Assembly: GCA_002726245.1 (NCBI GenBank)
Contig: PBSM01000188.1
Coordinates: 1 to 64,000 of the forward strand
DNA length: 64,000 nucleotides
From: Planctomycetaceae bacterium
GTDB taxonomy: Bacteria; Planctomycetota; Planctomycetia; Pirellulales; Pirellulaceae
Direction of reading: 5' to 3'
Part shown: positions 4,559 through 62,800 of the stretch, one piece after another
Layout of the letters: every line of letters starts with the position of its first letter
Numbering within the stretch: the first letter of the stretch is position 1
Position numbers and translations under genes: made by a program
The notes under the pieces: model-generated
What the model was told of the DNA's origin: nothing
The model's database searches: none
The model's input: the letters and a program-made list of their open reading frames with translations, nothing else

Positions 4559-4727
4559 GGCTGAAGCTTCGATACTGCGAGTCCATTGATGTCAGCACCC
4601 ATTCTACTTCAGTTGCATTCGGTCGTGGGCAGATTGAAAGCCTTGTACGCTATTCAACTCACATCGCAACCGCGGCCGAGCTATGATGGCGACGTGGGCC
4701 AAATCGACCGCATCCGAGAGACTCGCT
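4559..4727. promoter_or_regulatory. Divergent intergenic region between DUF1501 and CocE-like genes
   Basis: The two flanking genes point away from each other, so both promoters should lie here. I could not identify convincing -35/-10 boxes. A GAGAG stretch (about 4715-4719) upstream of ATG 4728 may be the ribosome binding site of the plus-strand gene. Confidence 0.4.
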
Positions 4728-12197: not shown

Positions 12198-13532
12198 ATG
12201 CTCACACTGTTCGGGAAACGAATCGATCTTTGCGACCGAACACCACGACGCGATTTTCTCGCGATCGGCTCTCTGGCAATGGGAGGATTGTCGCTGCCGC
12301 AGTTGCTGTCGGCCGAGCAAGCAGCAGGCATCCGCAACTCGCAGAAGTCGGTCATTTTAATCTACCTGACGGGCGGACCGCCGCATCAGGACATGGTCGA
12401 TTTGAAGCCGGACGCACCGAGCGAAATCCGTGGCGACTTCTCACCCATCGAAACGAACGTCCCGGGAGTTCAAATCAGTGAGCTGATGCCTCGCTTGGCC
12501 AAGATCACAGACAAGCTGGCGATTGTTCGTTCATTAGTCGGATCGGATGGACGCCACTCGTCGTTCCAGTGCGTTACGGGCCGACGTTTCGCTTCGCAGC
12601 CACAAGGAGGTTCGCCCGAAATCGGAAGCGTTCTGTCGAAGTTGAAGCCACAGGTGGATTCGTCAATCCCGTCCGCGCTTGACTTGTCGATTCATATGGC
12701 TCATTTGCCGTACAACTTGCCAGGGCCGGGTTTCCTCGGAAAAGCCTATGCGCCATTCAAGCCCACCGGCCATGCCATGGAAGATACGGTCCTGCAAGGT
12801 ATCGACGAGAAACGGCTTGGTGATCGCCAGACGTTGCTGGCGCGCTTCGATGAACTACGTCGCAAAACCGACGAAGGAATCGGAAACGATACGAATGAGT
12901 TAACAGCACGGGCACTGCAGTTGCTCACATCGAACAAGCTGGCCGACGCCTTGGATATCTCAAAGGAAGATCCGAAGATTCGCGAACGATACGGCAAAGA
13001 CGATACGAAGGTGCTCTCTTACTCGCACTTGGGCTATCAATCGCTAACGTCGAAGTTTTTGCAGGCGAGGCGGCTGGTCGAAGCGGGCGCGCGCTGCGTG
13101 ACCGTTGCTTATGCCGACTTCGATTGGCATGGCGGAAACTTCGCGAACGGCAGGAAGGTGATTCCGCTTCTTGATCAAGGTCTATCGGCTTTGATCAGCG
13201 ACCTGCATGAACGAGGACTCGACAAGGACGTGAGCGTTGTTGTCTGGGGCGAATTCGGCCGCACGCCTAAGATCAACAAGAGTGCCGGTCGCGACCATTG
13301 GCCCAACGTGGCGTTCGCTCTCTTGGCCGGGGGCGGAATGCGAACCGGTCAAGTCATCGGCGCGACCAACCGCTATGCCGAAGAAGCCACTGAACGCCCC
13401 GTCCACTTCCAAGACGTCTTCGCCACGCTCTACGAGCAGCTTGGCATCCCCGCCTCGACCACCATCCCAGACCTCACCGGCCGCCCGCAGCATCTCGTCG
13501 ATAACGGCCAGCCGATTGCGGAGTTGATCTGA
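12198..13532 (+). CDS. DUF1501 domain protein, Tat-exported (second copy)
   Basis: The leader TPRRDFLAIGSLAMGG (15-30) is a twin-arginine signal. The body is DUF1501 with LIYLTGGPPHQDMVDLKPDA (about 54-73), DFDWHGGNF, WGEFGRTP (350-357) and GRDHW (364-368). It is only moderately similar to the copy at 3158-4558 (compare GGPPHQDMVDLKPDA with GGPGHQDTWDLKPDA), so the two are old paralogues rather than a recent duplication. As with the first copy, no DUF1553 or DUF1800 partner is adjacent. No clear Shine-Dalgarno is seen before ATG 12198. Function in the cell envelope is inferred from export only. Confidence 0.9.
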   Translation: MLTLFGKRIDLCDRTPRRDFLAIGSLAMGGLSLPQLLSAEQAAGIRNSQKSVILIYLTGGPPHQDMVDLKPDAPSEIRGDFSPIETNVPGVQISELMPRLAKITDKLAIVRSLVGSDGRHSSFQCVTGRRFASQPQGGSPEIGSVLSKLKPQVDSSIPSALDLSIHMAHLPYNLPGPGFLGKAYAPFKPTGHAMEDTVLQGIDEKRLGDRQTLLARFDELRRKTDEGIGNDTNELTARALQLLTSNKLADALDISKEDPKIRERYGKDDTKVLSYSHLGYQSLTSKFLQARRLVEAGARCVTVAYADFDWHGGNFANGRKVIPLLDQGLSALISDLHERGLDKDVSVVVWGEFGRTPKINKSAGRDHWPNVAFALLAGGGMRTGQVIGATNRYAEEATERPVHFQDVFATLYEQLGIPASTTIPDLTGRPQHLVDNGQPIAELI

Positions 13533-38895: not shown

Positions 38896-41800
38896 TTAGT
38901 CGGACTCGCCATCGATCCAGTCACCGAACGCCTCGTCTAGCACGCTGCGTTCAACATCGATTTCGAGTTCGGCCAGCTCGACGAAAGTTGCCGCCAATCG
39001 CTCGGTCGATTCCGCTTCGGCTTCGGCCGCGAACAACTCGTCCACCACCCTAGAAACTGGATCCACCGGGGCGGGCGTCTGCTGTCGCACGAGTTGTGGT
39101 TGTGCCACCCAGAAGTCGTGGGGCACAAACCCAGCAACCTGCTGGGACCTCGCATTGGTGGAGCCAGCGGTGGTACCTTCGCCCTCGGGCAATTGCCCGC
39201 CGCCGCCGTTGTTGTTTAGGAAGTTGATGACATTGAGGCCATCCAGCGGATCGACGAAACCATTCCCGTTAACATCCCAGAACGGAGCGATTGCCGGGGA
39301 GTTCGCAGGGATCGCGTGCGAGCCATTGCGATTGATCTCGTTGACGATCAGCAGCGCGTCGATCGGAGAAACCGTGCCATCGGCGTTGACGTCCAGCGGC
39401 TCTTCAGAATTACGACGTGGACGAGTATTCACTACCTCAATACTGACGGTGACTGGCGAGGACTGAGCCCCGCTGCCATCCTGCGCGAAGTAGCGGAAGG
39501 TGTCGGTACCAAAGAAGCCACTGTTGGGCGAGTAAGTCAGGGACCCGTTGGTGTTTACTGCAAGCACACCATTCTGTGGGCCGCTTCCGGCGACAAGAAC
39601 AGCGCGAAGTTGTTCCTGATCTACGTCGATGTCATTCTTCAGCACTCCATCTTCGGCCGGGACGGTCAGTGTCGATCCTTCCGCCACAGAATAGGTGTCG
39701 GGGATCGCAATCGGAGCATCGTTGACAGCCTTCACGTTGATCGTGACGGTACCGATGGCCGTCGCCGAACCATCGCTCAGGGTGTAGGTAAAGGTGTCGC
39801 TGCCGTTGAAATCCTGGTTGGGCTGGTAAGTGAAGAAGCCACTTGAGTTCAGTACCGCCGCGCCGTTGGCGGCGTTGCTGGCCAGAGCGGCGGCCAAGGG
39901 GCTACCTTCAAGATCGCTATCGTTGACCAGCACTCCAATCGCCGAAGCCACGGTCAATCGCGTATCCTCGTTCACATCGTAGCTATCTGTTTGCGGGGTG
40001 GGAGCATCGTTGCGGCCATCGACGGTTACCGTGACAGTGCCCTCATTGGACAAGCCTGTTCCGTCTGCGATTCGGTAGGTGAAGGTGTCTTGCAGTGACT
40101 CGCCGGGCGCGAGACTCTGTAACTCCGCAACGGCGCTAGGATCGTACGTGAACGTTCCATCGGCATTCACCATCACCGGCGCACCCTTGGCACTCGTAAC
40201 GTCGAACGTTCCGACGTTGAGTACGTCCGTGGCGTCTGCGTCGGTGTCGTTGCCAAGCACTCCGACTCCGGAGACGCTGAGAGTGGAATCCTCATCGACG
40301 CGGTAGTTATCGTCGTTGGCGACGGGCAGGTCGTTCGCGCCGTTGACGGTGACCGTCACCGTAGTCGTTGCAGTTCCGCCCTTGCCATCCGCGATGGTGT
40401 AAGTGAACGTATCGTCCAGCGACTGGCCTATGGCCAAGGCTTGTATGTCTGAAACACCGGCCGGATTGTAGCTGAAGGCACCGGTCGAGTTCACCGAGAT
40501 GGAGGCACCTCGTGAGCTAGTCCCGGCAAAGGGGGTTACGTTGAGGAAGTCGTTATCGATGTCGGTATCGTTGACCAATAGGCCCGGCGCACCAACAACA
40601 AGCGAGACGTCTTCGTTGGTATTAAACTGGTCAGCGACCGCCACGGGCCGATCATTAACTCCCGTCACTGTAATCGAGACAATTCCTTCGGCGGTCGAGC
40701 TGTCCAGGCCGTCCGAAGCTCGGTACGTGAAAACATCCACGGACGTGGCACCGGTTGGTAACGCACCGAGTGTTGCCGAAGTACTCGGGTCATAGGTGTA
40801 GTCGCCACCAGTATCAACCCGCAACGTGGCGCCAGACGGCAGAACGAACGAAGAGCCGACGTTAGCCGTCGAGCCGTTGACTTCCGAAACGCTCAGGATG
40901 TCACCCTCGGCATCCGTGTCGTTGCTGACGAGGCCGTTCACAACCGGAACCGTAATGGCTGTGTCTTCAATCGTCGAGGCACTATCGTCCGCCGTCACCG
41001 GTGCGTCGTTGACGCCGCTTACCGTCACAGAGACGGTCGCGGTCGATTGCAACCCCAACGCGTCAATAATCGAATAGGTGAAACTGTCGGACAACGCTTG
41101 TCCATTGGCGAGTTCCTGTAATTCTTGCGAGCCGCGCGGATCATACGTGAACTCGCCGGTCGGAAGAATGGTGACGGCCGCGCCACGTTGGCTGACCTGA
41201 TCGAACGAAGACAGACCAAACGCGTCGCCGGCGTCGGGATCGAAGTCGTTGGAAAACAAACCAGCCGCGCTGGGGACTCGCAGCAGCGTATCTTCGTCCG
41301 TGCTGGCCAGGTCGTCGTCGGCGACAGGGGCATCGTTCGCACCGATCACGGTGATAGAGACCGTGCCGATCGTCGTCAAACTCGCGTCGAACACCTCGTA
41401 TGTGAAGGTATCAACGAGCGACTCACCTTGTCGCAAGGCTTGTAGTTGTGACGCAATGGTGGGGTTGTAAGAGTATCCTCCCAGGCCGCCAGTTCCTCCT
41501 CCCGAAGGCGGACTGGTGATCTGCACCGTAGCACCGTGTTGGCTTGTGACGAAACCGGGTGTTACTCGAAGAGTTGCGGTCTCGCCAGTGTCTGGATCGA
41601 TATCGTTGGCGAGAACTCCTGGTTCGATGAACGTCAGAGTTCCGTCTTCTCCAACGACAGCGCGATCGGCTTGTGCGATCGGCGCGTCGTTGGCACCGGA
41701 AACCGTGATCGAGACGGTGGCGGTATCGGTCACACCCTGCGCATCACGCACGTTGTAGCGGAACGTATCGACCAACGGCGCCGACGTCGTGCTGAGAGCT

Positions 41801-44800
41801 TGCAGCGACTGCGATTCGGTTGGGTCGTATGAATAACCGCCAGCAGCATCGACGTTGACCCGAGCACCGAGCGAGCTGAACGAATCGAAGCTGGTGACGG
41901 TCAATGTGTCGCTCACATCAATCTCCACATCGTTCGCCAAGACCGCGGCGGCATCGCTGCTGGAAACGGTTAACGCGGTATCCTCATTGGTCGAGTTCGT
42001 ATCATCGGCAGCGTCTGGCGCGTCGTTCAAACCGGTGACCGTGACGGTGACGGTTGCAACATTGCTGTTCGTGTCCGGATTTCCCGCCGTATCCAGATCG
42101 GCGGCACGATACGTGAAGGTGACCTGGCGTGATTCACCGACGGCAAGACTCTGGAAATCATTCAACGGATCGAAGCGGAAGGTATCAGCACCGCTGATGG
42201 TCGCCTCGCCGTTACCCGTGCCAGGCGGGCTGAGAATGGTGTACTGCAAGACGCGGTCGTCGGCATCAGTAGCCGAGAACAGATCGTTGATCGGCGGACC
42301 ATTTTCCGTCGTCGATACACTTACATCGCTGGCCACCGGAACGTTGTTCACGCCCGCCACCGTGACGGTCACCGTGGCTGTATTGCTGAGACCTTGCTGG
42401 ATGTCTTTTGCGCGATACGTGAAGGTAACTTGGCGGCTGTCGCCGTCGCCTAGGTCCTGGAACTCCTGGCCCGGATCGAACGTGAATTGCGTGCTGCCGG
42501 GCGTTCCGCTGGTCGAGACGTTCCCTTCACTCGGACCCAACAGAATTTCATAGGAAAGCGTCGCGAGTTCGCCGGTATCGATATCCGCCGAGTTGAAGTT
42601 TCCGTTCACGGAAGAGTCGAAGCTGGCAGGGACGGAGCGCGGCCGTTCCGTCGCCGCAATACTCACGTCCGCGGAGGTTGGCAGGTCATTCATGCCAGTG
42701 ACTGTGATCGTGACGGTCGCTTCGTTGGAGATCAGATCGTCCGTGTTGGTGCCGTTGTCTTGCACTCTGTAGGTGAAGGAGTCGCGTCGTGTTTGGCCAG
42801 CCGGAAGTTGCTGCAGGCTGTTGGCGGCGAGTGGATCGTAGGTAAACGAGCCGGTCGGGTTTACAGTCAACGTCGCGCCCAGATCGCTCGACGTGATCGA
42901 ACCTGGATCGACGACCACCAAGGTTTGGGCAGGGATGTCCACGTCGGTGTCGTTTTGCCGCAATCCCAAGCCCGACACCGTCAGGCGAACATCTTCCGTC
43001 ACGGTGAACGAATCATCGCTGGCGACCGGATTGTCGTTTCGGTTTTCAACAGCGATCGTGGCGACCTCGACCTTCGTGCTGAACGCGGTTGCGCCACCGT
43101 TGACCGATGCGTCGCCCAAGCCGCCGGCGGTACCACTCTGCTGGTCCCAAGCTCGAAAGCTGACCGTCGCCGTTTCGCCGTTAAGCTCTGTCGGTATGTA
43201 ACGCAAACTTGCCGTCGCAGGGAGCAAGCGTGCGGCTCCGTTGGAGACATTCCCAACTGGCAGGAATGTGGCACCACCGTCGAGAGAGTACTCCCAACCA
43301 GCCGCATTCGCGCCAGTCGTGCCAATAATCGCGAAGCCTTTGTCGAAGGGATCGTCGTCATCATCGATGAGATTGGGGGCGACGGTCGCGTTCGGGTCAA
43401 TCATCTTAGACACCAGGGTCCCCTGGTTCGAGATTTCGTCCTCGTGGATTGGATCAAGCGTCACTGAACCACTGTTATCGAGGCGAGGTGCATCGTTCAG
43501 GGAGGTGACGACAAGTGATGATGTGTTTTCGGTGGGGCTGAAGGCTGTCGTCCCGCCGGTCGGTGTGGTCGATGCTTGCATTCCCTGCTGACCCGCGGTT
43601 GTACCGCTTTGATCCCAGGCGCGGTAAGTCACGGAAACCGTTTCGCCATTCTTAAAGTCTGGCACATAACGCAGCAAGTCAACGGATCGCAGCAGAAGCC
43701 CCGGGTTGGTGAAGGTGACCGTGTCCAGAACAGGGACATCGACGTAGTTCGTCCCGCCGTCCAGAGAGTACTGCCAGATACCGTTGCCGCTGAAGCTGGT
43801 CAACGCGATCCCGCGTGACGCGCCGTTATCGACGTCATCGGTGGCGCCCATGAAGTTGTCAACGAGGTCACCATCGCTGGCAACATCTTCGTTCGTGCCC
43901 GTCAACAAGCCCGCCGCGGCTGTCGTAAACAGCGGGGCATCGTTCACGGCTTGAATCGCAATACTGGCCGTGTCCAGATCCGTACTGAATGGCGTAGCGC
44001 CACCGTTGGAACTGGTGCTGACCTTCATCCCTTGTTGGCCGACCGTCCCGCCACTCTGGTCCCAAGCACGATAGGTGATGGTTGGCATCTCGCCGTTTTC
44101 GTTGTCGGGGATGTAACGGAGATCGTCGGTTTGACGCAACAACAACGCCTCTGTTTCGGAAATGTCCATAATGTCCACGAAGGAACCACCGGTCGAGTAT
44201 TGCCAGCGGCCATTGCCGGCGACCCCGGTGACGGCCATTCCGACGCTGGCTCCGACATCGACGTCCGATGCTGTCCCACCCAGAACGTTAGCGACACTCG
44301 CTGTTGTTGAAGCGTCATCTTCGGTAACCGAAGGCAATGTCTGCGCCCCGGTAGCCGTCAATACGGGAGCGTCGTTGATAGCATTGATGAAGATCTCAAC
44401 GGAGCCGACGTCGGTTTGGAAGTCGTCAACGCCGTTCGTCGTTCCGTTGTCTTCAATCGTGTACGTAAAGAAGTCACTGTTGCCGAAGTTGTTTTCGGGG
44501 CTATTGAAGTCCGCGGGCGGGGTATAGGTGATCTGTCCCGTCGCTTGGTTGAAGGTCACGATGCCGCCCCGGTCGCTCGCGGGCGCAACGCTCACGACGT
44601 TCAAGGTTTGAGACGATTCATTGGGGTCGCCAGCCTGGTCGCGCAAGTCGTTTGACCGCAAGGTCGCCGCGCTGATGTTCAACAGCGTATCTTCATCCGT
44701 GTTGAACTGGTTGTCCGTCACCGCGGTTGGAAGATCGTTGACTTCCCAGACGGTGATCAACAGCGTGTTGTCGATCTGTTCATTGTCTGTTGGAGTGCTG

Positions 44801-47800
44801 GCGGTCAGGTCTTGGCCTGTATCGGTTGCACGAATGGTCAGATTGAACGTGCCGTGCTGCTCGGCTTTGTAGTTGATATTCAAGTAGTCACCATTCGCAT
44901 CCGGCGTGCCAGCGGCGTCGGCAAGCTGGGCGGTTAACAGCGGATTCGCAGGAGTGGTTGCGACACAAGTGCCGCCGACGACGAGACAGAAACTGAGTTG
45001 GTCGCCATTGGTCGCGACATCAGGATCGTCGAAGTACGTCCGCAGGTCGATCAGCGAATCGCCCGAATCCTCCGGAACCGTGATATCCACCGCTGCCGCC
45101 GCGACCGTAGGTGGATCGTTCACGGCGGCGACGTCCAACGTCAGGAAGTCGGTTGCCGTCAGGCCCGCCGCGTCGGTTGCCCGGACCTCGATGATGGCGG
45201 TGCCGTTCTGATTCGGCACGAAACCGACGATCATTTCCGAACCACCCGTCACTAATTGCGAATCGTCTATCGTTACCAACGACGGATTGTCATTGGAAAC
45301 CACCTCGAACGTCAGCGTCTCGCCCGTGTTGTCGGCAAAATCAACGTCGTCGAAGACGAGCAGCAGCAGTTCGAATTCGATGTCATCGGCATCTTCATTC
45401 ACCATCTCAGCGCCCAGCGGATTGGCGACGAACGGTGCATCATTAATGGCCGCGATGGTGATCGTTGTCGTTGTGTCAACCGACAGTTGTCCACCGATCC
45501 CTGTATTGCCGTTGTCGTTGACGGTGATTGTCAACAACACATCGCCGCCGTTGTTGATGCTGTTGAAATCGTTGCTAGGAACGGTGTACCGCAACTTGCT
45601 GGCCGCTCCCGTATCACGGAGCGTGCTTTGAATCTCGGCTAGGGTGCCGACTATCTGCACTGTCTCTGTTCCCTGCCCCGTAAGCGTGTTCAGATTCGTA
45701 TCTGGAGTGAGGAGAGTCAGGCTGCCCTCGCCAAGCGGAACCGACAGCGTAACGGTGACTTCCCCATTCGTGGTATCTGCGGCATCCACGTCGTCAAACG
45801 CGCTGACCAGGATGTCCCGCGTGCGGAGTGGATCCCCTGGGTTTGTCTGCGGCGGATTCTGGACACCTCCTTCGTTGATCGAAACTGTTGTCTCCACGGT
45901 CACAGTCGGGGCGTCGTTGACAGCCGTCACAAACAACGGGAATACGCCCACGCTCGACATCGCCGGAGGTGAACCGCTATCGGTCACCGAGATCGACAAG
46001 AGTGCTGTGCCGTTGCTGTGCTCAGCCACTTGGAAGCTAAGGTCCCAGTTATCAGTCGTTGGATTCTTGGTGACGGTTGGGAAGGTCGCAAACGTGACGC
46101 TACCGCCAGTCTGAACGATGTTGAAAGAGAGCGGCGTTTGCGACACTTCATCGGCGGCGCCGGCCGGACCGGGGACCACGTTGGCATCGAGAGCCCAGTC
46201 GGAGATGACAATCGGCCCGGCGTCTTCCAAAATTGGTTGCAACGTTGTTCCAGTAAACTCGGGCATGTCATTGACTGGATTGACAACGATGTCAAACGTT
46301 CCACTCGGCTGAATCGCCCCCACATCGAGCCCGCTGTTTCCGTTGTCATCAACGCTCACAGTAACGACGACGTCGTCAAAGTTATTGACGCTGTTGAAGT
46401 CTGAGTTCGGCACGGTGTAGGTCACACCGCCTCGGCTGGGGCCGGCGGCGTCGTTCAACGTGGCGTCGATCTCGGTCAGCGTTCCCGTCAGAGTCACCGT
46501 GGTTCCGTCCTGGCTGATTTGGCCAGCCGGCACGCCGCCCGTCGTGTTGGGGTTGACGGCGATCGTGCCCTCGCTGGGATCAACAAGCGCCAATGTCACG
46601 GTTAACAGATCCGATGGACCGGATTCGTTCGCATCGATGTCGTCAATCGTGATGTCGCGGATCGTGACGGCGCCACGCAAGAGTGACGCATCGGGAGTCT
46701 CAGCATCCAGCAACTCGTCGATTACGGGGGCCGTCGCAGGCAGCATTAACGTTGGAGCATCATTCGTCTGCCTGACGGTAATGGCTGCCGTTTCCGTTAC
46801 ATCTCCATCAGCCCCTGAACCAACGTTGCCGCCATCTTCGGCTCGGACGGTTAGCAGCACATCTCCGCCGTTGTTGTCGCTGTTGAAGTCCGCGTCCGGC
46901 AGCGTGTAGGTCAGGCTGGCTAGCGTCGTGCCGATCTCGACCTGTGTGCCTTGCAGAACGATCTGAGTGTTGCTGCCGTTGGGTGTGATCGTCGCACCAC
47001 CTGGTCCTGCCGTCACTGCGATCGTTCCGTCGCTACTATCGAACGGTACTGTCGTGGCGACCGTCAAGATCACAGTCAGTGGGGCCGTACCGATATCGAT
47101 GTCGGTGACCGAGACACCTGAAATCGCATGCGTCAATGCGGGCAAGCTCGTTCCAGCCGTGCCTTCATCAATTGTCTGCGCAGGGGCTACGATCACCGGA
47201 GGATCGTTAACGGGCTCGATCACGATCGTGAACGTTGCGGCAGTCGATGCGTTCTGGTGCGGTGCTCCGACCGGACCGTTATCTTTGGCAACAGCCGTAA
47301 CGATGGCGGAGCCAACCGCATTCTCGGCCAGTGTAAATGTTAGAGTCCCGGTTTTGCTAATTCGTGGTTGGACGGTGAAGAGCGAAGTATCGAGCGTGAA
47401 AACGTCCAGCGGATCGAGAATATCTTGCTCCGGCAACTCTTCGTCCGCCACGCCTGTAGGGCCGGGGATCGCTGTCGAAAAACCCGTGATCGTGTGCGCA
47501 TCAGTCGTCACAGGATTCGCACGCGTGCTGTATTCGGCGACCACCACTTGCGTGCCGGGTGTCCCTGTATCCTGGTCGATCTGCAGCGTCAGTTCCGGAG
47601 GATCATTGACCGCGTTGATGTCCAGAGTTACCACGCCAATGTCGGTGCTGAAGGCAGTCGCTCCGCCGTTGATTTGCGTATCCGCACTGCTCCCGTTGGC
47701 CGTCATGAACTCTTGGTCCCAAGCACGCACGCTGATCGTGGCCGTGCCGGTCGTGTTCTCGGTGTTGAAGTGGGGGTCGGGAATGAAACGAATGCGAGTC

Positions 47801-50800
47801 TGGACCGCATCGTCCAGCAACAGTGCTTGAGTCTCCGAAGGCCCTGTCGTGCTGTTGTGTCCGTTCACTGCGGTCCAGGTTGTGCCGTCGTCAATCGTGT
47901 ACTGCCAGACACCGTTCGACTCGTCGATCGCCACGACCGCCACGCCGAGCGGTGTGGAAGAACCGTCGACATCCATGATCAAGCTGCTGTGCTGCGCCAC
48001 GAGCGAGGAAATAGTCTGCCCTTGCGGGTCGGCGATGGGCGTCCCCGCCGCGTTGATGTTGTCTTCATTGATCGGAGACAGTGCGATTCGGCCGGGCAGG
48101 ATCTCGGGCGCATCGTTCACGTCCGTCACGCTGATCGTGAAGGTCTGGACGGCAGTGGTCCGATCGTCGTCCGGAATAAGCGGCGTCGCGTTGTCGTCCT
48201 TGAGTTCCACGGAGATGACAGCCACGCCATAAGCGTCCTGGGACGTCGTGAAAGTCAGTTCGCCGGTCAGCGAGTTGATCGCCGGAGCAGCCGGAGCAAC
48301 ATCAAACGCCATGACCTCGGTCAGGCTGTCGATCGTGACGATGAATTCGAGGGCCTGTGCGGTCGACGCTGGAAGTATCTCGTCCGTTGCATCGCTTGGG
48401 CCGGCCTGAAAGGGATCCGCAAAGAGCGGAAACGAGTGCACTCCCACGCCCATCCCGACGTCTTCGTCTTCTTCGACCGTTACATCGATGTCCGGCGTGG
48501 TCGTGAGATCCTGATCGTTCAGCGTAAACTCCGGAACGTCGTTGACCGGGGTAATCTGGATATCGATGCTCGAAGTCGTCGCCTGCGGGTCAAGAGTTGG
48601 TGGCGGACCGAATCGACCCTCGTCCTCGCTCAAGATCGTGATGCTCGTCAGAGTTTGTGCGATGAGATCGTTGTGATTCGCCGGCGGCGTAAAGACGAGT
48701 CCGTTGATCGCGGCGTTGATCTGGGCGACCGTGCCCGTAACGGTGATGACCGGGTCGTCGATACCGTCTTGTCCGGCGCCAAACGTCAAACCAGTGACGC
48801 CCTGCAAAGTCATAATGCTGCCGTGCGACGCGGTCAAGGTCACCTTCAAGACGCCGTCGTCCGCTGTCACCTGTCGATCCAACATCGGCATCTGAGCCAG
48901 GTAGGCGTCTGGATCAAACACGGCGATCGAGTTGTTTGCTCCGCGCGGCCCGGCGACCGGCGAGACAAGTTCGGTGCCGGTCGTACTCTGTGTCATATCG
49001 ACCAACGCATTCGCCAGCAACGAACCCTGAACCGCCGTCACGACTTCATCGGTCGTCGAAGTGATCGTGAACGCTCCGCCAGGTGTCAACGTGCCATCGG
49101 TGGCCAGCGTAACCGTGATCGTGGCGTTACCCGAGCCGATGTCTGTTACATCCACCTCGATCATCTGATCCACAACCGTCGGCTCGACGAAGACTACCTG
49201 CAGACGATCGTTCACCGTTGGCCGCTTCGTGAACGTGACGTCTTCTGCACCGAAGGCGAACGTGATGATACCGCCGACTTCCTCCGTCGTCCCCGCTTCG
49301 ACGACGCCCGTACCACTAGACGTGATCGTTACCAAGGCATTGGCGTCGGCGTTACCTTGAAGGGCCGCCGCTAGTTCGTCGGTGGTGGTCGTGATGTTCC
49401 CAAGTCCATCCGTCGCCAGATCAACAATGATTTGCGAACGCCCGCTACCTGTACCAAGCACGCTAACATTCAGCGTCGTGTTCGCAACACCCGAGTCGCG
49501 GAGTTCCAGAGTAATGACGTCCGTCGTATCTACTTTCTCGGTAACGAAGATTTTCTCCGCGCCGGCTGGCAATGCCAGGATCGCGCCACCGCTGGACAGA
49601 GTGACCGTTGAACCTTCTTCAATCTGCTGCTGCCCAGGTTTGGTGGTGATTGGTGGATCATTATCGTTATCCGTCAGGACGATATCGAAACGAATCGTGC
49701 CATCCGTTTGATTCGGCAACAGCAAGTTGCCGGCCAAGTCGCGAATACCGATCGCCGGGCTGCGATCCACGGTGATGGTGTAGTTATGCTCCAGCTCGAA
49801 TGTCGTGGTCGCCGTGAAGATGGCACGGTTTGAGTTCGAGTTGTAAGTGAACTGATAGTCAACGGCGTTTTGCAGCTGCCGCCCATCCTGAAAGAGGCTG
49901 AACTGCAGGGCCGATACCAACGTATCGTCGATACCAACGCCATCGTCCACAAGCTCGACAATCAGTTGATTCGGGGAGGCTGGCGAATCGAGCCATACCT
50001 TGTTTGCTCTTGGATCGAGGTCGGTGATACCGTCGTTGGTGTCCCGCGGTAAGTCCAATCTGGCAATGCCTTCGTCGAAGTCCGCGCGCTCGATGGCTCC
50101 ACGATCCTTAAAGATGTCAACGCCCAGACCCGCGGGGCTGACCTTCGAGGAATCGTCCAATCGCTTTTGACCGAAGGCGTCGAACTCGGGCGCCACGATC
50201 GGTGAAGCAGGCAGGCCCAGCGGCGACTTGACGGCTACGAAGTTGGGGCGATCCTGAAAACTGTTCAAGGAACTGTCGATGGCGTCCGTTCCCTGCACGA
50301 GATAGAAGTTCCCTTTGCGTGCGTCCACGAACAGGGGGTCGGCGGTTGTTCTTAGGGTCGCGTCCGTCCCCACGAACGCATCGGTCACATTGCCTTGGAA
50401 CATATTCGCGCCAACAACCGTGTTGCCTGCGGTGCCCGCGATGTTCAAGCTGCTAATCGTGTTGACGATCAGGTTATTCAGGATCGTCGGACTGGCTCCG
50501 CCCGAGATCGACAAGCCAATACCCGCCTGGGAACTGGAGATGGCTTGCACGAATGCTTGCGAGAAGGTCACGAAGAAGCCACTCGGATCTTGACGGAACA
50601 CCTCAATGTCGAACGTTGCACCGCCGGTGGCGTTGGCGTAGGTCACATAGGTGTCACGCGTGTTGTTGACACCGCCGTCGATCGGGTTGAACGGCAAGTT
50701 CGGATCAAGCGTGATACCAAAGAAGACCGCATTCTGGGTCAACAACTGGCCCAGGGCTTGCTGCTGATCCGCCTGCGACGAGTCGTCGTCTTCGTCGGTC

Positions 50801-53800
50801 ACGATGATCGGCACAGGAATCGCATTCGGACGGAAGTTGACAGTAGTAGCTGGCTCGAACTGATTGAGCGCTTCGAGAACACCTTCGCTGCCTGCTCCGC
50901 GGACCGCGAACTCGATGTCGAGTAAATTAAACGGACTGCCCGGAGCCGTAAAGGTCGCGAAGTCTACGAGATCCTGAATCAGCAACGGAGTTTGCGGTCC
51001 GGGGAACGGATCGCCTGGCATCACGACTAGCCCGTAGCGAGCGTCGATGTTCGAGTTGATCATCTGCTGCTCGAACTGCGGCAACTGCTGCTTAATCGCG
51101 ACAATGTCGTCGAACATGCTGCCGGTCACATCAATAATGAACACGATGTCCGCCGAGATCGGTCCGGACTGTTGCTGTACAAAGACCGGCTCGCCGAAGA
51201 TCGTGTTGTTAAGGACGCGTGCGAACGAGTTGGACGAAGGAATTCCGGAAGTATCGCCGCTGACTCGAATGCCGCCGACCCCGCCGGACAAGTTCGCAAC
51301 GACGTTGTTAACGATCACCGCGCCCGGCACGATATTGTCGGCGCTGAGTGTCGGGAAGTTTCGTAGCGGTCCCGGATGCGTTTGGGTGCCGTTGTCGATG
51401 TCGGACGCTTCGACATTGATGCCCCATTGGCTGGCAAAGCGAATCGTATTGCCTTCAATCCGCAATTGACCTTGCTCGCGTTCCAGGTTCGCGTCGCCGA
51501 GCCGATCGAATTTGTCGACGTTATCGACGGCGATCACATCGAGCGAGTCACTCGCACTAGAGACACCGTTGGTGAAGGCCGTGATGGTTACGTGGTTCGT
51601 GCCATCCGACACAAACTCGTCGATGATATCCACGTTGAATGTGATCGAAGTAATGCCCGACGGAACGACGATCGATGGGGCGACGGATGCCTCGCTAGTA
51701 TCACTACTGTGCAGGAAGAACGTGACATCGCGATCGAACGGAGCAGAGAGAACCAGAGTCGCGGTCACGGCGCCGACCTCTGCATTCTCGAATACCTGCG
51801 GAACGTTGAGAGTGAGTGTGGTGGTGACTGGTGACTCGTCGTCGAGAATATCGACGACGTCGTTTACGGAATCATAAACGCGCGGGATGGCGGGAAGCTC
51901 AGCCGCACCGCCGAAAGCGCTGGGGAAAAACGAAAGATTGACCTGATTCAAGAGGAGACCGGTTCGATCGTAGACGTCAAATTGCTGCAAGTTGCCTTCG
52001 GCAACATAGATTTCGTTATCAATGACGGCCAAGCCGGTTACAAAGCTTAAAGCATTGACGGTGTTGAAGGTGCCATTCTGTATCCCGGTAAACGGATCAA
52101 GCATCACGATTTCCGGGCTGAAGGTGACTGTGGCGACCAATTCACCTGGATTAGTGAGCGCTTCGAGACCGCCTGCCAAATCGATCGCGGCACCGAGGCT
52201 GTCAACGGCCGCAATCGGAGCCGAAATTGTGTTGGTGATGGGGTTGAATCGGTAAAAGGTATTACCTGCGACATCTGTCATGTAGACGAAGCCATTGAGC
52301 ACCGCCAACCCGTCAATCACTACTGCAGGAGGCAGCCCCAAGATGCTTGCATCCCGAACCGCGCCCGTATCAGGATCCAACTCGTACAAAGTCTCCGTCG
52401 CGCCGTTAATGAAGTACAGATTTGTTCCGTCGAAGGCGAGTCCATCGATGAGATTCCCGGTCGAGTCTGGTGCCGTAAACCGGTTCAGTTCAAAACCGGT
52501 CACTGGGTCGACTTCGATGATCGTGTTGAAGGAAGTCCGGGAGGTCGCAAACAAACGATCCCGACTGAAAATCGGTTGTGGAGGAATTGCACGGATGATC
52601 GACGTCTGAGTTCCGTCCGCCACGGTGTCGTCAACGGCTTGCAATGGAGTTGTTGTGGCGGAGGAGAAATTGAAGAGAGTCACACCGCCGCTAGGCACAA
52701 CTGCCTCTGTCAAATCGCTGCTCGTGAGGGCAACGGACAGGTCAAGATTTGTTTCAGCGCGGGAGACCCGCACGAGTGTGGCCAGGAAGCCCAAGCTCTC
52801 GCTGACCGCATCTGGCGGCCCCACCGTCACGACAACGGTCGGAGCAATATCGTCTGCCGAGTCGAGAACATCAATGACGGCGGCGACCGAGTCGAAACTG
52901 GGTACGGACGCTGTCACGATGACCGTCTGCGTTCCGTCGGTCAACTGATCATCGACCGCGTCGAAGTCGACCACGACCGATGAATCACCATCGAGGATCG
53001 TTGCTGTGATGCTGGAACCGGTGTTGAACAAAAGCGGATCCGTTAGGACGGCTTCGGTGTCGTCACTACTGGAGATGGTCACTACCAAATCGCCCGAGGT
53101 AATCAAATTGCCTGCGGCGTCTTTTCGCGTGATGGTGGCGGTCGTTGCCGCTGGACCGTCGTCTTCCACAACTTCGGCGGCACCGAGAGCCACTTCGAGG
53201 ATGTTGCCCATGGCCACGCCGCTGGCACTTGTCGAGAACGCTCCCCGACCCATCGTGCCGGCGACCAACAAGTCATTCGATTCGCTGAGGGCGAACTCGT
53301 ATACCGCCGCATTGGGGAGTCCCTGACCGTACAAGGACCAAAACGCCGGATTCGTGGTGTCCATCCGGTAAACGCCAGCACCAGTGCCAACGTAGACTAC
53401 GTCCGAATTTGTGCCGCTGCCGCGGACGAAACTGACCGAACGCATCTGGCTGGCAACCAAGTTGCCGGTCAAATTGTTCCATGTGCCGCCTGAGTTGGTG
53501 GTCATGTAGACGTTGGTGCCGTCGATAACGAAGGCTGTTGCCCAGTCATTCGGATCGAGAACGATGTCCTGCACGAAACCGCCGGGATAAGAAAATGATG
53601 GCGACAGAGCCCCGCCGGCGCCAGTCCGCACCAAGACTTGGCTGCCAGAGCCAACATACAACACGTCCTGATTGGGGACGCCGAACCGAGTACCGCCATA
53701 GGCGATTGGCTCAACGTCCATACCGTTGACTCCGACGGTTGCGATCTCAGTAAACGTGTCAGCTTGATCGAACGACTCCCAAACCGAGTTTAAGCCACCG

Positions 53801-56800
53801 ATGATGACGCGCGTGGGGTCGATGGCATTCAATTCAACCGGAGTGTTGAAATTTGTGTTCCCGCCGATTGCCGTACCACCACCCAGCACGGTCAGTGTCG
53901 GAAGCGCGGAGTTGACGATCTGATTATTGATGTCATAGGTCACACGCTCAAAGTTCTGTAGGGATTGAGACGACATGTACCGGATGGATTGGTCGCTGGC
54001 AGCTAACGTAATGTTGTCCACGTCGACGTCTCCGCCATCTCCAGACGTAATCTGCTCCCAGACCGTGCTGCCAGGAGAGATCTGATGATTCGTCGCGTTA
54101 TCCTGCAGGCCGGCGATCAGGACATCCGAGTTCTCGTCATAGGCGATGTCATGGATCTCGGCTACTTGCAGGTTGCCGGAAAGTGCGAACCAGTTACCGG
54201 TGTTGTCTTGTGGGCTGGTACGGCGATAAATGCCGCCGTCATCGACTTCGATAAGCGTACCGTCTGCAGCGAAGACCATCTCGCGTGAATCGGCATGAGG
54301 AGCGCTGCCGAAGGACGTTCCACCGTTGGGTATCGCCGGCACAGAATCCGAGTGTGTCAGGTGATCCCATTGTGGGGAAGGAACAGAGTTGGTCGGGGAA
54401 GCGCCGGCGTCGCCTCGGAACAGGCTGCCCGTGAAGTCGTTGGCTCCGATGAAGTTGGGCGAGGGGAAGTCCTGCCGATCGCCGCCAACATAGACGAGGT
54501 CCGGATCGGTAGAATCCGCTACGATCGAGAAGTGAATCTCTCCTTGTCCGCCCGCCTTTTGCCGCGGATTCACGCCGGTAACTTGTGCCCAAGTGCCCGT
54601 GTTCGTAACGTAAGTTCCGTTGCCGGTCGTTTGATTGAGCTCAAAGGTGTTAGCTGTCAGCACCGTGATGCGGTGGTTACCGTTCGCTGCTGTGTTCCCC
54701 AGAACATTCTCGACGAGAACACGGTTGCCCGTCACTAAGCCGTGACCATTGGAAGTGATCACGATCGGAGAAGTGTTCGTCGCACCAGTGATAGCAGTTG
54801 GCAAGCCTTGCGGAATGCCGGGCAAATCCATCGCGGTCCAAGTGAGACCTTGGTTGTCGCTGTAGCCGACGTAGTCAAGCTGGCCCAAACCCAGGACGCC
54901 GACGTACAACCGCCCAGTAATCGGCTGCACAGCCATTTCCGTGTTCGTGTTCTCTGTACCGTTTTGGATGACGTCCGCCAGGCCCGCCGTATCATTTTGC
55001 GAGATATTCATCCAGTTCAGGCCTGAATCATCGCTGCGATAGATGCCGTCGTCTTTCAGCGCCGCGTAGAAACGGGTCGAAACAAGGGGGTCGCCGACCA
55101 GGTCGTGCAAGGAACCGGCCGGGAGTCCGCTGCCACCTGCACCGGTGATCTCCGTCCAAGTCGCACCGTTGTCAGCGCTGCGGAACAGACCGCCTGTGCC
55201 AAAGCTGAAGTTCGAGGCGGCCAAGAGAGTGCTCCCGCGAATGGCGACGCCCGAGACATTCGCGCCCGTGAGCAGCGGGTCGTTGATTTCTGTCCAAGTG
55301 GCTCCACCGTCCTCCGTCAACAGCAGTCCGTTCAGGTCGCCGCCAACGCGGGAGAAGCTGCTGAAGCGCCCGATTCCGGCTAGCAGCCGATCTGAATCGG
55401 CCGGATCCATCTCCAAGGCACCAGTCGATAGCGAGGATTGAGTATCGGTGAGTGGAGTCCACGTCGGGAAGGTCGCAGTCGCATTGTCCGTCCGCCAGAT
55501 ACCGCCGTTCACAGCGCCGACGAACAGGATGTTAGCGTCCGCGGGATGCGCGACGACAGTGTGGATGGCACCGACGACACTGTTGTCGGGACCTACGTTC
55601 TCGACTTGCGCGTTAATGATCGGGGCTGGCCCCTGTGGAATCCACGCGATGTCTCCCGGCATCAAAACATCCACAGCGACGCCGTCGGTGACAGTCAACG
55701 TCAACTCGGCACGGCTAAAGTCTGGTGCGTAACCGACGATCGTGACGGTTTGATCGCCATCGAGGAGCAGGTCGTCGATGGCGTCGATGGGGAATGGGGC
55801 GGAAGTCGTTTGCCCAGCTAGAATGTCGATGGTTGCCTGAACAACCGCTTCACTCTCGTCAAGGCTCAACAGATTGATCGTCAGGTCAGTCGTCCCGACA
55901 GGGCTGCTCGAAATAGTCGCCATTGTGGCACCGGCGCCTGCGTCTTCGTCGAACGTACTGCTGAATGTAGGCTCGATACTCAGCGTCAACGTCGGCACTT
56001 GCGCCGTGTCGATCACCGTCGTTCTATCCGTGGCCGAGGAAAACCGACTGGCAAATGCAGTCACGTCCGCCGGCTGATCGCCGTCGGCTTCGTAGTCCTG
56101 GATCGGCGTTAGCGGAACGGTTATCGAGTTGGAACCTGCTGGAATGATGAACTGCCGTTCATCCGATAACTCGGACAACGGATGTCCTTCCACGGAGACA
56201 TGCAGTGTGTAAGTGTCTCCGACTTGAGGCGTTGCCCCGAAGACGCCAAAGCCGGAAAACGCATACGAGTTGAAAGCGCCAACGGCGATTGTGTAGACAC
56301 CGGTTATCGGGAACGTGACATCCAGGAAAGAATCGAATCCGCTTATACTACCGCCCTGGCCGAAGCTCGTCGGCGAGTCATTATTCGAGCCGCCTGGAAC
56401 GAGGTTGCCGGCCGCGTCGAACAGGAACAACTCGGTATCGAAGTTAGCCACGTCGATGTCAAAAATGCCACGTGTGCCACCAGTGGCGGTAAACTGGTAA
56501 TAGTCAAACGTCGAGTCACCGGAACCGGAGATGGTCACGTGAGGGATGAGTATCGACGTGTTGACTGTGGCATCCCCGATGTTCGGGTTGGTTTGCAACG
56601 TCCAATCCGCCGTATCGATGTCTTGCGCTGTCGAGAGCGTGCTGTTCGGCTCCAACTCGGCGATATCACCGGTTCCGGCTGTATCACCGATTAGCAATTC
56701 CGATGCGTCATGGCTCAGAACTGTCACCACGACATCTTCATCCGTCAGGATGTTGTGGCTGATGACGGCTTGCAGCGAGTTGAAACCAGCGTCTTCGGCA

Positions 56801-59800
56801 ACCCCCGTCCCATCTGGTAGGCCGCCCAGCCGGTGCCCCTCGACCGAGACCTGCAGCTCGTACGAGTCTCCTGGGTCGGGTGTCGAGCCGCCTAGAACGC
56901 CGGCGGTGACAGAGGAGTCGAATTTACCGACCGCAAGCGTATAAAGACCGGTTGTTAGGAACGTAAATTCGAGGAACGAATCGCTCGTGACGGTGCTTCC
57001 GCCTTCTCCGTCGCTCGCCGACGCCGCGTTATCGTTGGCAGCGAGTTCGAAGCCCAACTCGTCGAACAGGAAGAGTTCGGTATCGAAGTTAGCCGCATCG
57101 ATATCAAAAATACCACGCGAGCCAGCGGAAACTGTGAACTGATAGTAGTCAAACGTCGAGTCACCGGAACCTAAGATGGTCAAGTGCGGGATCGACATTG
57201 ACGTATTCATCGAGGTATCGCCGATGTCGCGATCCGAGGCGAGGCTCCAGCGTTCGCCATCGAGGTTTTGCGGCGCAGCCAGGGTGTTGTTTGGTTCCGC
57301 GTCTACGACTGGGATCGTATCGGAAAGTTCGATCGTCAGAGTCGGCGTCTCGTCGTCAAGAATGTCAAGCAGGTCGGTAACGCTGCTGAAATTCGTTGCG
57401 TCTGCCGTCACGATAATCGTCTGTGTTCCTGTCGCGATGTCGTTGTCGATTGATGTGATTTCGAAAGTAGCATACTCACTGCCGTCCGGAATCGTCACGG
57501 CAATGGTGGAGCCCGTATCGCCCGAAACGGGATCCCTCAGTACGACCTGTGTCGGGTCGCTACTTGTAATCGTCACCACTAAAGGGCCCGAAGTAGATCC
57601 TTCCCGGCTGACCAGGGCCAAGACGGAACCGACGTTGGTTCCATCAAACTCGAGGATCTCGTTTTCGAAGATCGTGACCGTCAAATCGTTAGACGACGTG
57701 AGTGGAATGATGGCCGTCGCGCCGGAGAGATGCACGAGTTCGCTGGTCGCGGTGTTCGAGGCCGTCACATTTAACGGAGATGCGGCGTTGATCCTATCCG
57801 TGACGCGTTGCGCGATTTGCGCGGCATCGTCCGTCGTCAGGAACTGGATACCAATGCGATCGGGGCTGCTTAGACTGTTGTCGTCGTCGAACTCGAACGT
57901 CTGAATGTTGATACTGTCGCTGATCGAAAACGCGTCGCCGTCTACTAAAACGTTACCTTCAAGCATGACCAACGTGAGCGATGTGCTAAACCGTTCGTTG
58001 GTATCGAAGGTTGTCAGAATCTTCATTTCGTCCCTGAATGGAGTCGTGCCATCAATCGGCGACAGCGGCTGGCCGATCCCAACCGGGTTCGTTGGATCGT
58101 TGAAGTTGAGCTTGGTGACATCGTTGCCGATATACTCAGTACCGCGACGGAACTCCAGTTGATACTCACCCACCAGCGACTCTTCGGGAGCGCCGAAAAC
58201 CGGGTTCTGGGGAACCTGGAACTGGCTGCTGTTGTTACGCTGGTCGGTCGGACCGGTGACCATCTCGCCGCGCTCGGCGAAACCGACGATGATGTCGTCG
58301 ATGTAAAAGCCTTCCTGGTTGTTATTTTCCATCCGGGTGCGATAGATAGGGCCTCCAGAACCGAAACCACGGCTAGTCTCGTCGCCAGGCATCGAAAGGT
58401 CGTGCGTGATCGCACCTGCCGTGCTGAAATCGAACCGCAGGCGGAGGTTCGGTTCACCGGCAAAGTCCGCCAGATCAACACGCGCCTGCCGCCACGAATT
58501 CGGAGCGTTTTGGTCGCCGATGTCGAAAAGTTCCTGCACACCCTGGTTGGGCGCCACCGGGAAGGCATCCCGCGACGTCGTCAGGTAGGTCGGCAGCTCG
58601 GTCTCTGGACTGGTGAAATTACCTGCGCTCGTCAAGTTTGAGTTATTCGTCGCCAGCAGTTGCCAAGTCGCCCCGTCATCGTTGGACGCAAAGACTCGAG
58701 CGCTGTCCACCATGGCGCCGTTGATCGTCGTACCGGAAGCGTTCTCGGTATCCAGGAAGTAGTTGAAATACAAGGTCGGCTTGTCCGTTCGATCATAACC
58801 CAGCAGACTGAACGAATTGGTTTGCAGCGTCCCGTGCGCGCCCCCGGGGAGGTTGTAGTTGGTGCCGATGGTATTGTTGAACTGGGTCAGCTGACGCTGG
58901 TAGTTGTAGGAAGCCTGATCCTGCACACCGTACTGGCCTGGGATGATACTGTCGGAGGGACTATTCGGGTCATCGTAACAATAATACTGGTCAAGCGGAT
59001 TACAGTACAGGGAATACTCCTCCAAGCCGAAGTAGAAGCTCGCTCCGCCCTGTTCTTCGTCGTGAACCTTCGTGTTTGTACCGGCCGTCGCTTGCTGGAC
59101 GTTGGAGAGCGTGTCGCGACTGTCATCAAACGCTTCATTGATCCCGTGCCCAGGATCCGTTCCCCGAAGTGTTGTCGGGTGCCACAGATTGAAGTCCAGC
59201 TGCGAGAACGCTAGCCCTGTCGCAGAGATCCCCATGGAATTGCTGAGGAAGCTGTCAGGCCTGCCATCGAGGTCGGTATCGAAAGCATTAACCGTGTTAC
59301 CCGCACTGTCAAAGGCAAACAGTTGTCCAAAATCGGTCGTGGCAAAAAAAGTATCCACGTACGCGCCGTTGGCGAGATTGGGCGGCCCCTTAGACAAGCC
59401 CGAGAACGACGAGAAGCCCAGCTCGGCGCTGAAGTCAGCGATGAGATTGGCGATGCCGAAGCCGAGACCACCACCCGGAATGAACTGTGAACCGACACTG
59501 TAGAACTGTCCGTCGTCCGTTACACCGTAGACTTGCCCATCGTTGGCCACAGACAAGCCGGTTGTCAAACCCGTCACGCCGATGCCGAACAACTCTCCCT
59601 GGTACCCGCAGCCCAGGTTCTGTGGAAATACTTGAATCGAATTGTTCTGCGAGACATACAGTTCGGAGTACCCGCCCGCGAGATTGTGGACTCCATAGTA
59701 GAAGTTAAAAATGCCAATAGCAGAAGCGTGAGTCGACGTGATGGCGCCAACGCTATTCGTCGTGACCCCACAAGCAGTGTTACTTGAATTCGGAATCGCA

Positions 59801-62800
59801 TCCGTTCCCGTAATCAAGCCGGGGCTGGTTTCCAGATCTAATTCCACGACACGACCAGCATAGTTGTTCGTGATGCCAAAGATACTGTCGCGGTACGCAA
59901 AAATGCGGCCATCGGCGCGGGCCACGATGTCCTGGACCTGCTCGACACCGCGCCCGGGATAATTGTCCCAGACCGTGTACAGCGGTTGGCCGTTAAAAGG
60001 ATTCACGGCGACTAAGGAACTCGTTGACGTGACGAAAAGAGTCGCGTCTTCAAGTTCCCACGGAACGACGTTGGCGCTAAGCTGCAAGCTATCTTCGACG
60101 TCAAACAAGGGAGCCGGGGTGTCCGGCTGAAGGTCGCGCGGCCCGGCATCTTCGGTTCCCACCAGCGTGCTGCCGGTCGTGTATCCCGTGAAAGCAATGT
60201 GATCTTCGACGATGCGCTGAATGGAATTCACCGGTTCCAGCCGCACCAGCGGAGAACTTGTGTTGGCAACGAATGTCTGATCGAGCGGGCTAGGTATTTG
60301 CCGATTCGACGAGATCGAAACAAAATACGTCTCGGTCTGCCCGGGGATTTCTGCGGGAAGGTTGACCGGCCCGATGAACGGATCCAAGACTCCCAAACTT
60401 CCGCGGCCAAGATCGTCGAAGTCATTGGCCTGGCCTGTCAGCGGCTGATCGTCCAGAATATTCGAGTCGCGACTGATCAGAATCAACCATCCAAACTCAT
60501 CCCAGACGGTCATCACCGCATCGGCGCGTGCCAATTGGTCTGCGTAGTCCAGGTCAAAGATCGTCGCGAACGCTCGCTTCGAATCGTTGACCCCGCTTGA
60601 ACCGGCCGGGCCAGCAATCGCTTGGATTTGTTCGTAGTTCAGTTCGACGCGATACCAGTCGACGTCCAACTCGTCAGTCAGACTGCCGGCCACGGAGATC
60701 GTGTTGCGGTCTGTCGCCAGGAGGTTTCCGACATCTTGCGCGGTGGTGAGGGCGTCGTTCGCCACGTTGTCGCTTTCGGCAGCCTCGCCAGTCAACGGTG
60801 AGTGTCCCGGCAGACCACGCGCATGGATTCCGTTTGTCGCATACAAGATGTTAGCGAATCGGATGTTTGAACCGCCCTTTTCATCTTCTTGGCCGAGACG
60901 TACCTGCAGTTGGTACTCGCCGTGTGTCAGGCCGCCATCAGTATTGGTGATGTCGCCGCTGGCAGGATTACTGCGGACCCGCACAAAGTAGGTCCCGAGG
61001 GCCGTGCCGGACCCCGGCAATGGAACTCGCATTCCCGGATCATTTGGATTTGTTGAATAGAAATCGCCACCCAAACGGTCGTCGTGGATCACATTGTGAG
61101 CCGTGACAGACTGCGAACTCGTCAGCATCTGATTGTTGATCGAGCGGGCCAGCAAGCTGCCATTTTGAGCGATCAATTCCACCACAGCATCCAAAGACGC
61201 TGCGGTGCGATCGACGTCGAGCCACACCTCAGTGCCAGGAACTGCCTTGAAGCTAAACACGTCCACATCGGTCGGATCATCCACGGCGATGAAGCCGTTG
61301 ACGGTATAGCCCAGCGCGAGATTTTCATCACCGCTCTTCTCATTCGGTGCTAACTGGCCGAGGAACTGCGCGAGAACGGGAGTTCGGTTCTGATCAATAC
61401 CATCCGCGAAGGACGGTTCCTGTTCGTTCACCACAACCACGTTGCGGTCATTGCTGTACTTCTCAAGCAAGATTCCGCGCCAATCGCCCGGTGTCGCATC
61501 CGTTGCATCGCTATCGTTGTTGGTATCGCTGTGCGGTAGCCCATCGACGGAGAAACTCGCACCTTGCGAATCGTCACCCAGCGATGTGAGGATCACCGGG
61601 AAATCGGCAAATCCGAGCACCTGCAGCGTGCCGCCGATCCGATCATCGATGTCGAGTGCCGTCCCGCTCGCAGTGAAACCGGTGACTTGGCCATTCGTAT
61701 TGGCAGGATCGTTCGGATTACTCCCCAGCTTCACGACTAAGCTCTCGCTAGGACGGCTCTGCAGCCGCAACCCGCTGAACGTGTGATGGTTCAGGACGAC
61801 GATCTCGTCTCGCAACACATGCACGATATCGGTATCGTCCCATACCGTTTCCGTTGTCAGTTCTTCACCGCGCACCTCCATGCCGTTGCCGCCGTTGTTA
61901 TCGACCAAGTTGCGGCGAATCAGCGGACCTCGATTGTTGGTGAAGATGGGGGCATTGCTGGTCGGGTCACGAACCAGATCCACGGCACCTGTCGTTCGCC
62001 CGTAGTCGCGCAGCACCGTGCTAGTCAATGCATTCGCATTGATGCTGATCATGTGGGTGCCCAGCGGAAAATGAGTGGGCGTTAGCGAATTGTCGTGGGT
62101 GTTGTTGCGGAAGATGTTGTCGATGATGATCGGCTGAGCACCGCGGACAAACACCACGGCTTCTGTGTTGGTGCCGCGCCCGTTGCGATTGCTGCTGGCC
62201 AAACCGGAGGAGTTATTCTCCAGAATGCTGTTCGTCAGTCGCAGATCAGCCTGATGTACTTCGATCGTGTTGAATTGATCGAAATCACCGTCGATCGGGA
62301 TCTGCCCGCCGGCGTTGGTAATCAAGACGTGATCGAGACTGACGCTGGCGCCAGCGTTGAAGATCAGACCGCCCCATTGGCCCGGCGCGGAGCTGGATGC
62401 CGTGCCGTCATTGGTCAGATCGAACGTTCCACCCGCACCAAAACCATCATCGCGGCGCGAGGTGAATACGATCGGGCGCTCCGCCGTTCCTTCCGCGATG
62501 AATTGGGCACGGCCGGGCTCGGCTTCGATGCGAGAACCTTCGAGCTTGACAACGATGCCAGGATCGACTTGCAAACGAGCCAGCGGTCGGCTTTCGATTA
62601 CCGAAGACGACACGACGGAAGTTATAACGGTCGAATTGTTACCCAACGCCAGCGAAGACGTAGCAGCATCGTCAAAGTCGGTTGCTGCAAAGGGGTCCAG
62701 ATGCAGCAAGGGAACGTTGTTGCCCGTGTTTTGCCCCACGAATTCAATGCGGATCGGAGACGCTGGCAACGGGCCGCCGGTGACAATGATGTCGGCAGGT

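Follow-up and report, generated by a model that had tools for sequence, protein, structure and literature searches.

Why does one of two neighbouring giant genes carry a whole domain at a point where the other has a short loop? The question arises in a stretch of 64,000 nucleotides from a Planctomycetaceae bacterium (GCA_002726245.1, contig PBSM01000188.1, positions 1 to 64,000), referred to here as the window. It contains two giant open reading frames, BIG and NB, both encoded on the minus strand in a head-to-tail arrangement. Between two blocks that they share, BIG has an insert of 223 residues with a predicted von Willebrand factor A (vWA) fold, and NB has 5 residues. The answer that we favour, with a probability of roughly 0.72, is that this loop in the third coil of a beta-helix serves as a display socket, into which ligand-binding or catalytic modules can be exchanged.

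15354..38594, minus strand: NB, the neighbouring giant open reading frame; 7746 amino acids (aa), complete; homologue of BIG with an empty socket
38896..63999, minus strand: BIG, the larger giant open reading frame; the window covers the last 8367 aa of an open frame of 10,385 codons that extends beyond it

A vWA domain within a beta-helix coil

BLASTP aligned BIG 4042–4269 with NB 4340–4555 (34% identity) and BIG 4495–4747 with NB 4561–4829 (39% identity), which leaves about 225 residues between the blocks in BIG versus 5 in NB. At the junction, BIG reads ..ARVLNNTIFG, then the 223 aa (which lie between NNTIFG and GIGLSISG), then GIGLSISGGASPTILNN, and NB reads ..LRIVNNTFFG, then GNDSN, then GVELSSEVSATILNN. 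The original prediction had proposed a vWA domain standing between two beta-helix coils, with NNTFFG and ATILNN as the junction motifs. The insertion itself is borne out; the motifs are correct for NB, but BIG reads NNTIFG and PTILNN.

51193..51522, minus strand: left flank, beta-helix coils 1–3 up to ..ARVLNNTIFG, BIG 4160–4269 (NB homology, flank profile, AlphaFold2 strands in the BIG and NB models)
50524..51192, minus strand: socket cargo, vWA with short linkers, BIG 4270–4492 (Pfam; AlphaFold2 model, residues 120–330 with a vWA fold; structure comparison)
51118..51132, minus strand: loop 1 of the metal ion-dependent adhesion site (MIDAS), DVTGS, BIG 4290–4294 (sequence)
50779..50802, minus strand: MIDAS loop 3 region VTDEDDDS, a conserved acidic stretch, BIG 4400–4407 (sequence)
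50080..50523, minus strand: right flank, rest of coil 3, coils 4–5 and C-terminal cap, GIGLSISGGASPTILNN to ..KDRGAIERAD, BIG 4493–4640 (NB homology, AlphaFold2)

Pfam run on long pieces of BIG misses the vWA domain, which is detected when the insert is scanned alone or with short flanks. Even alone, it matches VWA (PF00092) weakly (E 1.8e-4, 22.2 bits against a cut-off of 23.8) and VWA_4 slightly below the cut-off (E 8e-5), and an NCBIfam scan of the domain gave no match. A PF00092 search of its own genome recovered 24 other vWA domains and missed this one because it is too divergent for the profile. Two siblings in the same socket score above the cut-off (G082:C83, 9.7e-11 and 42.6 bits; L061, 1.6e-6 and 28.9 bits; we number genomes G, contigs C and homologous loci L).

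We modelled BIG 4160–4640 with AlphaFold2 from 36 sequences taken from the window and genome contigs. The model (mean predicted local distance difference test score, pLDDT, 81; predicted template modelling score, pTM, 0.77) shows alternating strands and helices in residues 120–330. For this part, Foldseek returned integrin I domains and other vWA domains (best E 9e-7), and VIA returned integrin I domains, BatB and a TFIIH subunit with Z 16–17 and a root-mean-square deviation of 2.6–3.5 over 172–194 residues. The cargo of BIG is thereby predicted to have the vWA/integrin-I fold, a Rossmann-like alpha/beta fold. The MIDAS that had been ascribed to it is recognisable in part: loop 1 (DVTGS, with Thr at the second position; residue 6308 of the 10,385-codon frame) and loop 3 (TDE) are present, but no loop-2 Thr can be made out. 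With its DVTGS and TDE motifs, the vWA of BIG may plausibly depend on metal, though not as a general trait of the members.

For the scaffold, the empty region of NB was folded with AlphaFold2 together with 40 empty homologues.

24417..25214, minus strand: NB beta-helix modelled without cargo (AlphaFold2, Foldseek, VIA)
24915..24929, minus strand: empty socket of NB, GNDSN between NNTFFG and GVELSSEVSATILNN (BLASTP; loop between strands 92–94 and 100–105 of the NB model)

The model is a regular beta-helix with three strands per successive coil (pLDDT 80, pTM 0.80). Foldseek gave weak matches (best E 4e-3). The best VIA match was the GH136 lacto-N-biosidase BsaX (Z 16.9), and further matches were to PL6, pectate lyases and tailspikes, almost exclusively beta-helix proteins. 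In the model, the socket is flanked on both sides by a right-handed parallel beta-helix and corresponds to the loop between strands 92–94 and 100–105, in coil 3. Structure prediction thus agrees with both halves of the proposed architecture, a vWA fold in BIG and a beta-helix in NB, with Z of about 17 for each.

Unrelated modules in the same loop

When 60 relatives were searched with BIG 3900–4900, 40 genomes had homologues, with contiguous flanks in most and split flanks in some. A fused-flank consensus was run over the window's family, and of its 149 genomes 118 had a match, representing 54 of the 68 genera. A genome-contig scan yielded 348 relatives, from which 79 loci were kept (titles planctomycete or unassigned 'bacterium'); as the query contained the vWA, vWA carriers are over-represented in this list. 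L035 (G079) was rejected as a socket member, its vWA lying in a short protein. The match at L006 (G020:C2:147343-148077) has an in-frame TAA and its left flank in two frames, which may reflect either a disrupted giant gene or an error in sequencing.

Eight types of cargo were found in the socket (BLAST, Pfam, NCBIfam), forming BLAST clusters without matches between groups. vWA domains account for 13 distinct sequences, among them those of BIG and of the C168 paralogue in its own genome; two belong to a second family of the class. A cargo of 150–190 aa with an SFAD motif, which belongs to no family, occupies 14 loci in the BLAST clustering and further loci besides. Four cargos are NIDO domains (PF06119, 4e-25 in L087), and four are an unnamed domain of 200–218 aa (L043, L046, L143, L144). 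L047 and L138 carry a stretch of 333–342 aa with a weak PPC match (0.008). The remaining types are a choice-of-anchor L domain (L075, NF038133, 1.5e-64), a predicted M8-like (leishmanolysin-like) metalloprotease with the HEXXH motif HEMGH (L072, PF01457, 1.6e-7, 30.9 bits against a cut-off of 21) and one more unnamed domain (L044). The vWA of the C168 paralogue (L041) has an extra segment of about 100 residues within the domain.

The vWA had originally been regarded as a feature that distinguishes BIG from NB. As a private difference between the two, this does not hold, since vWA domains occupy the same loop in six or more lineages of the family and in a second family of the class, and other homologues fill it with seven different domain types.

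Insertions are confined to few places. When 119 homologues were placed on a profile of 268 positions, inserts of at least 30 aa appeared at two sites and none elsewhere. One is the socket loop (positions 105–119, the scatter coming from alignment jitter) and the other is the turn after GGIRFSGD (positions 81–87; L026, L047, L055, L138, L141, L142). Judged from the gaps in the profile, inserts at the second site are about 60 to 490 residues long, where the largest gaps may partly belong to the first socket.

Most of these loci, the window included, come from metagenome bins, so that the insertions and the mosaics described below might be artefacts of assembly or binning. We find this hardly credible: a socket vWA is also present in the complete one-contig genomes G262 and G428, BIG, L056 and L057 carry theirs independently, and open reading frames run across the junctions.

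Probable repeated gain of the vWA

In a flank tree of 109 rows, vWA carriers stand at six places. This requires 6 changes, versus 22 precise losses if the vWA was ancestral to the beta-helix and was lost in NB and most other members. An ancestral vWA would account for the socket vWAs being recognisably one domain family and for their presence in two families of the class. It would leave unexplained why the same loop is used by seven other cargo types, and the vWA tree departs from the flank tree. We therefore rejected ancestry followed by loss on grounds of parsimony and cargo variety and regard it as very improbable. A more careful flank tree of 31 rows forces at least four changes, and a single vWA clade is rejected by the approximately unbiased (AU) test (p-AU 6.6e-5).

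BIG, L056 and L057 form one clade in the flank tree (100/100). As 3 of 3 carry the vWA, the insertion is stable within this group. NB is not the closest relative of BIG in that tree, and a gain or loss private to this pair was rejected for this reason.

Exchange and relocation of modules

Within the BIG group, the vWA of L057 has a history that differs from that of its flanks. Compared with its orthologue L056, L057 is 77–92% identical in most nearby flank windows (55–69% in a few), whereas the vWA is 49% identical. Against L059 and L060 the pattern is reversed, with 31–52% in the nearby flanks and 62–64% in the vWA. Since the vWA is thus paralogue-like and the flanks are orthologue-like along the alignment, the two trees conflict for L057. 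The vWA tree groups it with the vWAs of C168, L059 and L060 (98/96) and rejects the group of BIG, L056 and L057 (p-AU 0.0002); the flank tree rejects L057 with the C168 group (p-AU 1.2e-5, a grouping noticed before this AU test). The best-fitting foreign segment in L057 spans columns 1575 to 1904 or 1915, compared with socket borders of 1575–1912 (0/200 permutations). Donor-like sites number 51 vs 21 inside the segment and 15/8 vs 76/158 outside it.

It could be argued that the vWA entered the orthologue group of BIG once, that divergence was purely vertical and that fast evolution of the vWA made L057 look like a mosaic. The vWA does outpace its flanks, as the 49% identity to L056 attests. 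Speed cannot, however, bring the L057 vWA nearer to the paralogues (57–64%) than the flanks are (mostly 30–50%), nor does it fit the concentration of donor-like sites inside the socket or the rejection of a vertical vWA clade, and the exchange of a protease for a vWA described next is not explicable by rate. Vertical descent alone therefore appears improbable, and convergence or rate as the source of the L057 mosaic is disfavoured by the vWA tree, the flank tree and the segment permutations.

L072 compared with L147 and L148 is a cleaner case of exchange than L057. Over flanks of 150 and 250 residues, L072 is 84 and 88% identical to L147 and 86 and 78% identical to L148. The cargos between these flanks are unrelated, a metalloprotease in L072 and a vWA in L147 and L148. 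In L150, a wider copy of the L148 locus, the vWA is still in the beta-helix socket, and a protease that is 66% identical to that of L072 lies at frame residues ~2055–2322, in an upstream domain, where RLRFDFS- and EGFYIDDII-type segments border it. This is a third insertion place; at the equivalent motif, the loops of BIG and NB are short. With the protease in the socket of L072 and in the upstream loop of L150, one module is found in two different loops of close relatives. Modules have thus been both replaced and relocated, with switch points at the socket borders.

Giants lie near each other, as do NB and BIG in the window and four matches on G090:C183. This proximity suggests that exchange may proceed by homologous recombination between giant paralogues. 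Upstream of the socket (columns 855–975), L060 is 59–75% identical to L057 and 35–38% identical to L059, its closest relative elsewhere; this stretch is another mosaic.

What the socket may do

We propose that the coil-3 loop of a short right-handed beta-helix in planctomycete giants accepts modules whose ends probably lie close together, so that they would leave the helix undisturbed and project sideways. In BIG, the module is a predicted integrin-I-like vWA, most likely a ligand-binding one; relatives hold different modules or none. Modules have been swapped among paralogues and orthologues at the socket borders, and because they are exchanged on a kept scaffold, the proteins would vary in what they bind or cut. 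The giants are likely surface proteins with exposed cargo, and the example of RTX adhesins suggests that the cargo may be the part that does the binding or cutting.

Several observations weigh against this proposal. The socket is empty (0–26 aa) in most sampled homologues, so the cargo is dispensable. L056 and L058 have lost the Asp of MIDAS loop 1, and L057, L059, L060 and L061 that of loop 3; metal binding is hence not a fixed property of socket vWAs, and the metal-dependent adhesion originally ascribed to the module of BIG is putative. Three cargo groups matched no family in the Pfam and NCBIfam scans, which makes ligand binding across the whole class of cargos putative. Finally, deep branches of the flank tree are weakly supported and the exact count of vWA gains is uncertain for that reason.

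The modules might also act within the scaffold, cross-linking or stiffening neighbouring giants or binding envelope components instead of outside ligands or substrates. Dockerin-type domains mediate protein–protein contacts in other bacteria, and the giants end in such a domain; several of them also lie side by side on one contig (NB and BIG; four on G090:C183). An outward function agrees better with a predicted metalloprotease and NIDO among the cargos, with the many empty sockets and with the diversity of modules, and we consider a scaffold-internal role unlikely, if less so than the alternatives above.

Beyond the display socket itself, it is conceivable, at somewhat less than even odds, that the giants are standardised display platforms with several sockets (the coil-3 loop, the turn about 20 residues upstream and the upstream-domain loop), drawing on a common stock of modules, binding and enzymatic, that ongoing recombination between paralogues moves around. 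If so, each lineage would have a fast-changing surface repertoire. Planctomycetes have many proteins of 5,000–10,000 residues whose role is largely unknown, and a plug-in site gives a testable idea of the giants, in which the scaffold would be constant and the cargo would tell the role. The cargos also show which domains a single beta-helix loop tolerates in nature, which is of use in protein engineering, and offer a marker for following adhesion or degradation specificity in aquatic bacteria.

Comparison with known systems

vWA domains, beta-helices, display from split domains and planctomycete giant genes are all known (PMC5177795, PMC11573180). In the open literature searched, with most subscription journals lying outside it, we found no description of planctomycete giants with a fixed socket in which eight domain types are interchangeable.

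The closest parallels come from RTX adhesins, where ligand-binding domains emerge from split domains (PMC12077191). In AhLap of Aeromonas hydrophila, the RTX beta-roll solenoid makes two turns before a vWFA domain emerges, and this domain bears an insert of its own (PMC12077191). In FrhA of Vibrio cholerae, split domains orient binding modules outward (PMC10865825). The architecture of BIG, which had been called unusual, is indeed so, but the vWA on a beta-solenoid in an RTX adhesin sets a precedent (PMC12077191). As in these adhesins, a scaffold domain of the giant is split by a ligand-type domain that emerges from it, in BIG as a 223-aa insert inside a beta-helix coil, and the vWFA of AhLap with its own insert resembles the vWA of the C168 paralogue (~100 extra residues). 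Unlike them, BIG has a pectate-lyase-like right-handed beta-helix as scaffold, not an RTX roll or immunoglobulin fold; its C-terminus is dockerin-like, and RTX repeats had no match in the Pfam scan. One fixed slot for many unrelated families is not described in the available parts of PMC12077191 and PMC10865825.

The integrin alpha I domain sits in a loop of the alpha-subunit beta-propeller and serves adhesion. The likeness is that a repetitive beta scaffold bears, in one of its loops, a vWA/I fold with a MIDAS-type motif, which BIG keeps in part; integrins, in contrast, are eukaryotic receptors with a propeller loop that is known to hold I domains only, whereas here a beta-helix holds eight types. 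I domains are functionally interchangeable in TRAP (PMC7351488), and a search of the open literature for module swapping in RTX adhesins yielded no relevant paper but this one. In polymorphic toxins, variable modules recombine onto a conserved carrier (PMC3482391). Exchangeable modules on a conserved carrier are common to both systems, but the variable part of the toxins is a C-terminal toxin, while here it is an internal domain beyond which the scaffold continues.

Giant genes of planctomycetes were reported by Reva and Tummler 2008, as cited in PMC5177795, and Big_9, Cadherin_4/5 and Dockerin_1 are listed as typical of the huge proteins in PMC11573180. BIG belongs to the same class of very long secreted-type proteins with those domains. 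The available parts of both papers catalogue size and domains and, unlike the present analysis, describe no socket or module exchange.

The giant open reading frames and their surroundings

The start codon of BIG is probably Met 29 of the 10,385-codon frame, and its N-terminus bears RLEPRQLLAA, an LEPR-type motif. A Pfam scan of the last 8367 aa found cadherin-like/Big_9 repeats and Dockerin_1, and no RTX family. Around BIG residues 2811–3140 (window 54000–55700, minus strand), there is a weak Sortilin-Vps10 and E1_FCCH-like match, and the BIG–NB alignment is interrupted at this stretch. On the low-coordinate side of the giants lie two DUF1501 genes (window 3158–4558 and 12198–13532), and beside them an FGE-sulfatase-type gene (10049–11230) and a GHL10 glycosyl hydrolase-like gene (7604–9112).

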